Origin: Anaeromonas gelatinilytica
GTDB taxonomy: Bacteria > Bacillota > Clostridia > Tissierellales > SIT17
Direction of reading: 5' to 3'
Assembly: GCF_016820635.1 (NCBI RefSeq)
Contig: NZ_WSFU01000137.1
Location: forward strand, 1-64,000
DNA: 64,000 nt
The notes beneath the pieces were generated by a model. That model had not been told where the DNA came from and did not search any database. It saw nothing but the letters and a program-made list of their open reading frames with translations. Within the stretch, counting starts at the first letter, position 1, and every line of letters begins with the position of its first letter. The translations under genes were made by a program, and so were the position numbers. This document shows positions 344 to 48,333 of the stretch, piece after piece.

Positions 344-520
344 CAGATAATTAAATAAAGAAGTGAGAGGTGCTCGAAAGAGATAATAGGGAAAAAGGTG
401 TAAGACCTTTGCAGCCCCCGCTACTGTAAGCATGACGAAATTCACAAACCACTGTTTTGACATGGGAAGGGTGAATAGTAGGATGATTGTGAGCCAGGAG
501 ACCTGCCTTTAACTTATCTG
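344..520 (+). promoter_or_regulatory. Cobalamin (B12) riboswitch aptamer
   Basis: The cobalamin riboswitch landmarks occur in order: the core GCAGCCCCCGCTACTGTAA near 410-430, a CCACTG block near 450, GGGAAGG near 465, and the B12-box GAGCCAGGAGACCTGCC at about 491-507. A closing stem is visible as CAGATAA (344-350) pairing with TTATCTG (514-520). The aptamer lies upstream of an intrinsic terminator and a five-gene ABC importer. High adenosylcobalamin would be expected to switch the importer off. Confidence 0.93.
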
Positions 521-571
521 CATAGAACTTCGGTGGGAGGTTTAATGGTTTTGATTTCTATATGAATGAAG

Positions 572-42836: not shown

Positions 42837-42888
42837 AATGTCAAATAAAAATGACCTATATAGGTCATTTTTATTTGACATTTTTTAA
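42837..42888. terminator. Long perfect terminator after codY
   Basis: A 22-bp perfect stem (42837-42858 with 42861-42882, innermost ATGACCTA / TAGGTCAT) is followed by TTTT. Confidence 0.88.
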
Positions 42889-43428: not shown

Positions 43429-43489
43429 TAATATTGATGTTGATTTATGTTTAGTAAGTATTTATAATGAAATTAATTAAATAACATAT

Positions 43490-43680
43490 GTGAGAGATGA
43501 ATATTGGAGATATCTACAGAGATAACCGTAGAAGCAAGGAATTGATTATGCCAAAAATTAATTCTGAAACTTTCAGGTTTAATACAATGTTTTGACACAC
43601 CCCTGGAGAGACCCATTTTGGGCGCCGAAGAAGAAACTTATGAAATTAAGAGGAAACTTTCAGGTAAAAAGTACAGGGTG
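43490..43680 (+). promoter_or_regulatory. Tandem glycine riboswitch
   Basis: The second aptamer is canonical: GGAGAGACC at about 43605, GCGCCGAAGAAGAAAC at about 43622, and CTTTCAGGTAAAAAG at about 43657. The first aptamer (about 43490-43595) is weaker but has GGAGATATC, AACCGTAGAAGCAAGG and GAAACTTTCAGG in order. The P1 stem of aptamer 2 (ACCCCTG with CAGGGT) shares its 3' strand with the terminator at 43674. Glycine-stabilised P1 should therefore prevent termination: an ON switch. Confidence 0.88.
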
Positions 43681-43722
43681 CAAAGGAGCATGATTTTTTA
43701 TGCTCTTTTGCACCCTGTTTTA
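43674..43722 (+). terminator. Glycine riboswitch terminator
   Basis: CAGGGTGCAAAGGAGCAT (43674-43691) pairs with 43700-43717 over 18 bp with one G-T pair, then TTTTATT follows. It competes directly with P1 of the second glycine aptamer. Confidence 0.9.
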
Positions 43723-43752
43723 TTGTCTAAATATATATTAAGGAGGGATAAT

Positions 43753-44784
43753 ATGTTCAGTGTGGTAAAAGGTTTAAGTTTATTAGTACTCACATTATTA
43801 GTATTTTCAATATTTAGTTTAAAAGCAAAAAAAGGTGATAAAGCTATGTCAGGATTAGCTGGAGCCGCAGTTGCAACATTTTTAGTTGAAGCAGTGCATA
43901 AATATATTAGTGGTGATTTCTTGGGATTAGATTTTTTAGGAGAAGTAGGATTATCCTCTGGTAGTATGGGAGGAGTTATTGCTATAATATTAGTTAGTCT
44001 CAATATGGGAGTTAATCCAATATATTCAGCAGTAGCAGGTGCTGCTATGTCAGGACTAGACATATTACCAGGATTTATAGCTGGATATATAATAGGTATA
44101 TTAGCCCCATATTTAGAAAAAATATTACCAAAAGGATTAGATATTATATTAGGTGCATTATTAATAGCACCTATAGCACGAATAATAGGAACATTATCCA
44201 CTCCTGTGGTAGATAGTACATTACATTCTATAGGAGAAATGATACAAATGTCTGCAACTCAATCACCAATATTAATGGGATTTTTCCTAGGTGGAATTAT
44301 GAAAATAATGTGTACATCTCCATTAAGTTCTATGGCATTAACTGCAATGTTAGGTTTAGAAGGTTTGGCTATGGGAATAGCATCTATTGCTAGTTTTGCA
44401 GGAGCATTTACTAATTTTATTGTATTTAGGAGATTAAAACTTGGGGAGAAAGGAAGTACATTGGCAGTTATGTTAGAGCCTTTAACTCAAGCAGATATAA
44501 TTACTAAAAATCCGTTACCCATATATATATCTGATTTTATTGGTGGTGGTTTAGGAGGTATAATAGCTGCATATTTAGGAATAGTAAATAATGCACCAGG
44601 AACAGCTTCACCAATTCCTGGGATGTTAGCACCATTTGGATTTAATGAACCTTCAATAGTTTTATTAGCCTTAGGAGTATCAGCAATAGGTGGAATAATA
44701 GGTGGATATATAGGTACGTATATATATATAAGTTATAAAAAATTAAGAGCAAATAATAGAAAAAGAAAATTAGTGTTAGATTAG
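43753..44784 (+). CDS. PTS EIIC-like membrane protein (COG3641/PfoR-like) under glycine control
   Basis: The 343-residue polytopic membrane protein has about nine or ten hydrophobic segments rich in Gly and Ala. The segment SPILMGFFLGGIMKIMCTSP, then LSSMALTAMLGLEGLAMGIA, and later ITKNPLPIYI and APGTASPIPGMLAPFG, fit the PTS_EIIC_2/PfoR pattern as I recall it. No EIIA or EIIB partner is nearby. The true start is ATG 43753 (AGGAGGG upstream); the in-frame extension to 43618 lies in the riboswitch and terminator. Being switched on by glycine, it may export or import glycine or a related compound. That function is inference. Confidence 0.75.
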   Translation: MFSVVKGLSLLVLTLLVFSIFSLKAKKGDKAMSGLAGAAVATFLVEAVHKYISGDFLGLDFLGEVGLSSGSMGGVIAIILVSLNMGVNPIYSAVAGAAMSGLDILPGFIAGYIIGILAPYLEKILPKGLDIILGALLIAPIARIIGTLSTPVVDSTLHSIGEMIQMSATQSPILMGFFLGGIMKIMCTSPLSSMALTAMLGLEGLAMGIASIASFAGAFTNFIVFRRLKLGEKGSTLAVMLEPLTQADIITKNPLPIYISDFIGGGLGGIIAAYLGIVNNAPGTASPIPGMLAPFGFNEPSIVLLALGVSAIGGIIGGYIGTYIYISYKKLRANNRKRKLVLD

Positions 44785-44803
44785 ACTCGTTAAGAGTCTT
44801 TTT
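44783..44803 (+). terminator. Terminator after the EIIC-like gene
   Basis: AGACTC and GAGTCT pair around GTTAA, followed by TTTTT; the stem overlaps the stop codon. Confidence 0.8.
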
Positions 44804-44961: not shown

Positions 44962-45459
44962 ATGAAAAGGAAATCACATATGAATTGGTCATGGATAATA
45001 ATTGTTAGTTTTTTCTTATTATCTATAATTGATTTTAGATTTGGAATATTTGGATTTGTATGTATGGGAACGCCTATATATCATGCATTAAGAGGAAGAG
45101 GAAAGATTCATTGTTCTCATTATTGTCCTAGAGGATCATTTTTAGGCAGGTTTCTTGGGAAAATAAGTTTAAATAATAACATGCCTAAATGGATGCGAAG
45201 TAAATTTGCAAAACATTTATTATTAGGTATTATGATTATATTATTAACTATATCGTTAATACATGCTAAAGGAGATTTTAATAAAATTGCATTTGCCTTA
45301 TTTAGATTCATGGGAGTATCTTTTGTAGTTGGAATTATGATGGGAGTAATTTTTAAGAAGAGAAGTTGGTGTACAATATGTCCTATGGGTCATGCTACAA
45401 GTTTAATTAAGAAACATCAAGATTCAAAAAAGAAAAGTGAACTCGTTCATTTAAAATAG
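44962..45459 (+). CDS. Membrane 4Fe-4S binding protein, NapH/CcoG-like
   Basis: The 165-residue membrane protein has cysteine motifs of the NapH-type domain (PF12801): HCSHYCPRGSFLGRF at about residues 50-64 and WCTICPMGHATSLI at about 137-150, each a C-x2/3-C-P half motif. Membrane helices lie before and between them. Such proteins pass electrons across or along the membrane using Fe-S clusters. Only two short Cys motifs are present, so it may bind one cluster or act with a soluble partner. GGAGGTG precedes the ATG. It is monocistronic; the partner is unknown. Confidence 0.78.
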   Translation: MKRKSHMNWSWIIIVSFFLLSIIDFRFGIFGFVCMGTPIYHALRGRGKIHCSHYCPRGSFLGRFLGKISLNNNMPKWMRSKFAKHLLLGIMIILLTISLIHAKGDFNKIAFALFRFMGVSFVVGIMMGVIFKKRSWCTICPMGHATSLIKKHQDSKKKSELVHLK

Positions 45460-46792: not shown

Positions 46793-46875
46793 TAAAATTA
46801 TTATAATTCGGGTGATAATATAATTTAATATATAATATAATAAAGACAAGTATAAATTATGAAAGGATGTTGAAT

Positions 46876-48333
46876 ATGAGTGGAGTACTAAGGGACATAA
46901 AGCCATCATCAGTTTTTTATTATTTTGAGGAATTATCAAGGATTCCTAGATGTTCTGGAAATGAAAAAAATGTAAGTAATTATTTGGTATCTTTTGCTAA
47001 AGAAAATGCGCTAGAAGTAATTCAAGACGAAGCATATAATGTTATAATTAAAAAACCTGGAACTGAAGGGTATGAAGGTGCACCTACAGTAATTCTTCAA
47101 GGTCATATGGATATGGTATGTGAAAAAAATAAAGATACAAAACATGACTTTTCAGCGGATCCGTTAAAACTAAAAATCGAAGGAGATTTTATTAAGGCTA
47201 GTGGGACTACATTAGGAGCAGATAATGGTATAGCTGTTGCATATACTATGGCAATATTAGCATCTAATGATATACCTCATCCACCATTAGAAGTATTAAT
47301 TACCACAGAGGAAGAAACAGGAATGGGAGGAGCAAAAGGATTACATAAAGATAATATTTCTGGAAAAATTCTTATTAATATAGATTCGGAAGAAGAAGGA
47401 GTATTGTTAGTTAGTTGTGCTGGAGGAGTTAGAGATAAGGTTATATTACCTATAAATTGGATACAAGTGAATTCAGAAAATTCTTCATATCTATTAACTA
47501 TAAGAGATCTTAAAGGTGGACATTCTGGTATGGAGATAAATAAAGAAAGAGGTAATTCAAATATAATTTTAGGAAGAGTTTTAGAAGATTTAAATCAGAA
47601 TTTTGAGCTATCAGTATATGAAATTAATGGTGGAGCAAAAATGAATGCTATTCCTAGAGAAGCAGATGCTAAATTTGTTTTAGATAGTAATAGTTATGAT
47701 AGTTTAAAAGATAGAATTAAGGAATGGAATAATAAGCTTCAAAATGAGTTTAAAGTTTCTGATCCAGATGTTAAAGTAGATGTAATTGAGATAGATGAAA
47801 GACCTAAAAAAGTTTTTAATAAAGAAACATTAAACAAGTTAATAGCATTATATAGATTAATGCCTAATGGGATTCAAAGTATGAGTGTGGAAATTGAAGG
47901 ATTAGTACAAAGCTCTACAAATTTAGGTGTTGTGACTACAGATAATAAAGAAGTTATATTTGAAAGTGCAATAAGAAGTTCTATAAAAACATTAAAGGAA
48001 GAAATATTTAATAGAAAGAAAGTATTAGCAGATTCTATAGGTGCTAAAGTAGTTGCTGAAAATGAGTATCCTGAATGGCAATATAATCCAAATTCTTATA
48101 TAAGAGAAGTATTTATTGAGGCTTATAAAGATATGTTTAACTCTGAGCCAGAAATAGATGCAATCCATGCAGGTTTAGAATGTGGATTATTTAAGGAAAA
48201 ATTAGGAGATATAGATATGATATCTTTTGGTCCCAATATGTATGATGTTCATACTCCTGAGGAAGCCTTAAGTATTAGTTCTACTGAGAGAATGTGGGAT
48301 TACTTGCTTTCTATTTTAAGAAGAATTAAATAA
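46876..48333 (+). CDS. pepD: Aminoacyl-histidine dipeptidase (PepD, M20 family)
   Basis: The cytosolic Zn dipeptidase of about 485 residues cleaves Xaa-His and other dipeptides. Metal-site motifs: VILQGHMDMVCEKN (His and Asp at about 78), the catalytic TLGADNGIAVAYTMAI, TTEEETGMGGAKGL (Glu pair) and LINIDSEEEG. The end, ISFGPNMYDVHTPEEALSIS, carries the last His ligand. The dimerisation domain lies between. ATG 46876 follows GAAAGGA; the in-frame ATG at 46867 lies too close to that site. Confidence 0.92.
   Translation: MSGVLRDIKPSSVFYYFEELSRIPRCSGNEKNVSNYLVSFAKENALEVIQDEAYNVIIKKPGTEGYEGAPTVILQGHMDMVCEKNKDTKHDFSADPLKLKIEGDFIKASGTTLGADNGIAVAYTMAILASNDIPHPPLEVLITTEEETGMGGAKGLHKDNISGKILINIDSEEEGVLLVSCAGGVRDKVILPINWIQVNSENSSYLLTIRDLKGGHSGMEINKERGNSNIILGRVLEDLNQNFELSVYEINGGAKMNAIPREADAKFVLDSNSYDSLKDRIKEWNNKLQNEFKVSDPDVKVDVIEIDERPKKVFNKETLNKLIALYRLMPNGIQSMSVEIEGLVQSSTNLGVVTTDNKEVIFESAIRSSIKTLKEEIFNRKKVLADSIGAKVVAENEYPEWQYNPNSYIREVFIEAYKDMFNSEPEIDAIHAGLECGLFKEKLGDIDMISFGPNMYDVHTPEEALSISSTERMWDYLLSILRRIK

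Follow-up and report, generated by a model that had tools for sequence, protein, structure and literature searches.

Why a tandem glycine riboswitch precedes a gene for an EIIC-like membrane transporter, and what that transporter moves, are the questions raised by a locus in the 64,000-nt stretch of Anaeromonas gelatinilytica DNA analysed here (contig NZ_WSFU01000137.1, positions 1 to 64,000; hereafter the window). An Rfam search of the organism's own draft genome (2.89 Mb) detected two glycine aptamers (RF00504) on the forward strand, aptamer 1 at 43494-43597 (34.2 bits) and aptamer 2 at 43593-43685 (55.5 bits, E 9.9e-09); an Rfam scan of the whole window found aptamer 2 alone. Aptamer 1 is the weaker of the two, and the consensus CCGAAG reads CCGUAG there. 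Both scores exceed the Rfam cut-off of 32 bits, so the tandem aptamers of the preliminary description hold up, and with one expression platform they have the form that is common, though not universal, in RF00504. The bit scores, together with recurrence across eight genomes, rule out a chance or false riboswitch.

The expression platform is an intrinsic terminator at 43673-43718 on the forward strand, located by a terminator scan that counts up to 20 pairs and given as 21 bp with a 4-nt loop by folding; the folding z score of the leader against shuffles was -4.86. The terminator starts one base 5' of the 3' strand of aptamer-2 P1 (43674-43680), which lies within its 5' arm; this strand has two rival partners, the 5' strand of P1 (about 43598-43605) and the 3' arm of the terminator. 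The competition between P1 and terminator described earlier is borne out by this common strand, and the terminator length given then, 18 bp, becomes 21 bp by folding. Judged from its architecture, the leader is an ON-type glycine riboswitch. At low glycine the 21-bp terminator would form and transcription would stop before the EIIC gene; at high glycine aptamer 2 would close P1 and claim the terminator's 5' arm, letting transcription run on into the EIIC gene. A candidate sigma-70-type promoter for the riboswitch transcript (43440-43468, forward strand, TTGATT-17-TATAAT, 10/12 matches) ends 25 nt 5' of aptamer 1; promoter-like sites are not in excess in this region (20 vs. 21.1 in shuffles). 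An independent promoter after 43722, which the preliminary description had set against glycine control, was looked for and rejected: the sole promoter-like site between that position and the EIIC gene (43723-43752, 9/12) abuts the start codon, and the count is at background level.

The EIIC gene (43753-44784, forward strand) starts with the ATG at 43753, about 35 nt 3' of the terminator and behind a ribosome-binding site, AAGGAGGG (43740-43747, forward strand), and encodes a protein of 343 aa. PF13303 (PTS_EIIC_2, 208.9 bits) is its sole Pfam match, in line with the family first assigned to the gene downstream of the switch; the Na_Ala_symp profile (AGCS, PF01235) gave no match to this protein in Pfam. 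A terminator-like hairpin at 44783-44799 (forward strand, terminator scan) indicates that the gene is probably monocistronic. The flanking genes are codY, queT, a Fer4_5 membrane protein, mnmA, an M20 peptidase and an M18 peptidase. Pfam found no EIIA or EIIB among them, confirming that the gene has no PTS partner in the window neighbourhood, and none was recognised beside the relatives, where Pfam was run on part of the neighbours. The Fer4_5 membrane protein (window 44962-45459) and the M20 peptidase (46867-48333) follow EIIC in the window, in L005/G001 and in L006. The window also holds a long terminator-like hairpin between codY and queT (42837-42882) and a cobalamin riboswitch (351-524, forward strand, 111.9 bits).

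Which proteins does this transporter resemble? A PDB sequence search with the window protein gave no credible relative. Its predicted structure (pLDDT 86.5, pTM 0.81; model built from just 23 sequences) had glucose-superfamily EIIC proteins as sole convincing PDB fold neighbours, namely 8qsr (PtsG), 9lgt, 3qnq (ChbC) and one PtsG model. These matches are modest (TM 0.50-0.55, E 1.1e-03 to 6.6e-03), the structure search hit to 8qsr having TM 0.55, E 1.1e-03 and probability 1.00. By family profile and predicted fold the protein fits a glucose-superfamily PTS EIIC, the fold match being modest. It has the Pfam family PTS_EIIC_2 in common with these proteins, which are its closest solved folds, and differs from them in its glycine control, in having no EIIA/EIIB seen nearby and in being only 10-14% identical to the solved structures.

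The pairing of switch and EIIC gene was then traced in other genomes. A scan of GTDB genome contigs yielded nine relatives, of which three (L005, L006 and L013) carry a glycine aptamer directly upstream of EIIC, and class and phylum genome surveys added G322, G214, G448 and G486. The eight switched EIIC genes (window genome G000, L005/G001, L006/G779, L013/G780, L020/G322, L021/G214, L026/G448 and L027/G486) span at least four families (f1, f71, f138 and, for Caloramator, Clostridiaceae). Sensitive searches found both aptamers in all eight leaders (E <= 0.001), aptamer 1 of G779 scoring 30 bits, just below the cut-off. In most of the eight, aptamer 2 outscores aptamer 1, which fits the pattern given for transporter targets in the available part of PMC6944388. 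The terminator 5' arm contains the P1 3' strand in 8/8 leaders, so that ON-type glycine control, as proposed initially, is supported on sequence grounds at every locus; for G322, G214, G448 and G486 the strand sharing was read from folds, since the automatic terminator scan missed the first and misplaced the other three. P1 and terminator covary, with CCCUG/CAGGG in five leaders, UCCUG/CAGGA in G214 and CUCUG/CAGAG in G448 and G486. Recurrence of the pairing in several other bacterial families makes it very probable that the transporter handles glycine, not sugar. The tandem leader of G448 (L026 2579-2768, reverse strand) was called as glycine-GGAnGA (RF03166, 116.5 bits), not as RF00504. In the L013 record a frame change interrupts the Caloramator EIIC gene; since the genes around it are split as well, this is likely an assembly error.

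A tree of 24 proteins groups the 21 relatives in a clade set off by long branches from other PTS_EIIC_2 proteins of the same genus; the window protein shares 21-24% identity with these others. The closest named relative by EIIC protein is that of Anaeromonas frigoriresistens (L005, 86% identical; Thermohalobacteraceae in the tree output). Seven of the eight switched genes cluster (support 85/91, drawn open) and G322 stands apart, so two changes of riboswitch state are needed to account for the tree.

Next, we compared the glycine metabolism of these genomes. Genome searches found grdA alongside the switched EIIC in seven of the eight genomes, G322 being the exception; gcvP was found in G214, G448 and G486, which combine gcvP, grdA and the EIIC gene, and not in G000, G001, G779, G780 or G322. 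Within the window's genus, a comparison of four genomes and hence of small numbers, G000 and G001 have the EIIC gene without gcvP, and G002 and G003 have gcvP without a member of the EIIC clade; in the latter two a tandem glycine riboswitch lies about 1.6 kb upstream of gcvP on the same strand. EIIC as a simple replacement for gcv fits these four genomes and is contradicted by G214, G448 and G486, where the co-occurrence of all three genes indicates that a valve would not merely stand in for glycine breakdown.

Other glycine leaders served for comparison. The window genome's only other glycine switch precedes its grd (glycine reductase) operon, in which Pfam confirmed GrdA and the gene names otherwise come from sequence reading. 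This switch shares the ON design of the EIIC leader, as do others and all five gcv leaders examined; for the grd leaders of G780 and G375 the design was not clear from strand reading. ON-design leaders also stand before carriers, AGCS in G779 (L087 278-472) and APC in G214 (L060 265-462); for AGCS genes the reported switches are OFF, the reverse logic. In two others, the leaders of AGCS in G322 and of APC in G655, the terminator comes 81 and 58 nt after the aptamer, which would suit an OFF design; read by eye, the terminator 3' arm of the G322 leader can pair with the aptamer core GGAGAGACU.

Some EIIC orthologues have no riboswitch. Five of them (G099, G375, G192, G602 and L010/G781) adjoin a histidine kinase and a response regulator; Pfam recognised a YcbB domain in 4/4 regulators and a histidine-kinase ATPase domain in 3/3 kinases tested. 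These kinase and YcbB-type regulator loci are L080, L082, L084, L086 and L010. G192 has, on one strand, the order gcvT-gcvH-gcvPA-gcvPB-glyA-kinase-regulator-EIIC (SHMT and gcvT named by Pfam, gcvP by genome search, gcvH from sequence reading), and this stretch had no Rfam match. There is a weak hint of an operator motif common to the upstream regions of the two-component-linked orthologues. By its gene context, the kinase with its YcbB-type regulator is a candidate glycine- or amino-acid-sensing two-component system. The YcbB domain is also that of GlnK-GlnL (YcbA-YcbB) of B. subtilis, a two-component system linked to glutamine. The earlier proposal that the family moves glycine or a derivative is strengthened by the G192 cluster and by the serine-biosynthesis neighbourhood of G322, where downstream of EIIC lie a T-box, serA, an isocitrate/isopropylmalate-type dehydrogenase, a class V aminotransferase and DUF1015; overall, the earlier interpretation is partly supported.

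From the aptamers, the strand sharing, the recurrence and the fold resemblance, we infer that a tandem ON riboswitch responding to glycine controls a PTS-independent EIIC-fold carrier of glycine or a very close compound, with outward flow somewhat likelier than uptake, and we give this reading a probability of about 0.48. The substrate is most likely glycine. The EIIC-like protein would move it, or a very close compound, across the membrane without phosphorylation, and outward flow would act as a relief valve upon glycine accumulation. It is a tentative extension, with the odds against it, that this clade within PTS_EIIC_2 consists of glycine exporters, amino-acid carriers with an EIIC fold and no dependence on the PTS, which glycine would turn on via an RNA in some lineages and apparently via a YcbB-type two-component system in others, as a safety valve where glycine cleavage is absent or insufficient.

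Our preference for efflux over uptake is a leaning, held without confidence. It draws on G322, which has an ON-switched EIIC together with an AGCS carrier under an OFF-like leader: in a genome where neither known glycine-degrading system was found a glycine-induced importer would make little sense, and the opposite kind of AGCS leader likewise favours export. It draws also on the four genomes of the window's genus, in which EIIC and gcvP do not occur together. The ON design as such was rejected as proof of export. AGCS and APC permeases are usually importers, and the AGCS leader of G779 and the APC leader of G214 are also ON; such carriers in glycine reducers favour import there, and uptake is a serious rival. 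Under the same ON switch, the protein may import glycine for glycine reductase, induced by its substrate and co-expressed with the grd operon. We regard this as unlikely on balance, because G322 carries the ON-switched EIIC without grdA or gcvP, with its AGCS leader OFF-like, and because G002 and G003, of the window's own genus, have grdA and glycine switches and no member of the EIIC clade, even though the window genome's other glycine switch controls grd, grdA accompanies seven of the eight switched EIIC genes and importer-type carriers stand behind ON-type leaders in G779 and G214.

Rather improbable is a glycine-controlled carrier of a related compound (serine, sarcosine, betaine, a peptide or a one-carbon product) whose flow must follow that of glycine: the genes after EIIC in G322, and the M20 peptidase after EIIC in the window, L005 and L006, would suit it, yet such neighbours are not common across the clade, and what most loci have in common is the glycine switch itself. 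The fold and the Pfam name, both those of EIIC, speak for a conventional sugar EIIC of the PTS, or else a regulator in the membrane, with a riboswitch link irrelevant to the substrate; we consider this very improbable given that no EIIA or EIIB was seen beside the gene in the window or the other loci, that the clade is just 21-24% identical to other PTS_EIIC_2 proteins, that the switch occurs in eight genomes and that one orthologue sits in a gcv-glyA cluster.

How does the preferred reading, a glycine-switched carrier of glycine, compare with known systems? The leader resembles gcvT- and grd-type ON glycine riboswitches (RF00504) in its tandem aptamers, in the strand common to aptamer-2 P1 and terminator and in its ON logic; the target there is glycine breakdown, whereas here it is an EIIC-like membrane protein. 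OFF glycine riboswitches precede AGCS Na/alanine symporters in Vibrio and S. pyogenes (cited in PMC11477304, available part); they too place a glycine switch before a transporter, but here the logic is ON and the transporter family unrelated. A PF03458 'Glycine transporter' (UPF0126) gene behind a glycine riboswitch (L066) is another membrane family in this position, although unrelated to the EIIC-like protein. The available passages give glycine cleavage or transporters, the latter exemplified by sodium:amino-acid symporters, as switch targets (PMC6944388), gcv, grd and AGCS as targets in C. difficile (PMC11477304) and a count of three glycine transporter orthologues, names not given (PMC3766115). 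EIIC-like targets are not mentioned in these passages, so the switch is an ordinary class member and the target is the new part. The preliminary statement that known switches govern gcv genes or Na/alanine-type carriers was too narrow, as glycine switches here also stand before the grd operon, APC permeases and the PF03458 gene, and grd is a target in C. difficile (PMC11477304). A pairing of glycine riboswitch and EIIC was not reported in the open literature searched, and nothing was found there on COG3641 or PTS_EIIC_2, the one paper matching PF13303 being about oligosaccharide harvesting. Clostridium acidurici has an EIIC without enzyme I according to the available part of PMC3519856, which indicates that an EIIC can exist without a working PTS; EIIC and glycine riboswitch stand there in separate passages, unpaired.

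The orphan EIIC-like clade, present in several Bacillota families, thereby gains a testable substrate. If the reading is true, the EIIC fold would serve for an amino acid that is not phosphorylated in transit, glycine switches would govern both import and export, depending on how the cell metabolises glycine, and the two-component system next to the orthologues that lack the switch would become a candidate sensor of glycine.

Three further loci were recorded. L062 (284-3827) has a glycine riboswitch with three genes behind it, for a small ACT-like protein, for a second ORF product and for a threonine/serine dehydratase-like enzyme (names from sequence). In two genomes of the same genus, another PTS_EIIC_2 paralogue comes directly after a gene with HTH_11 and 3H domains (L092 802-2447; L093 1277-2867); this gene looks NiaR-like, which suggests that other PTS_EIIC_2 family members also move small metabolites. 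A third type of PTS_EIIC_2 gene (L094 1124-3501) is followed by fdrA.
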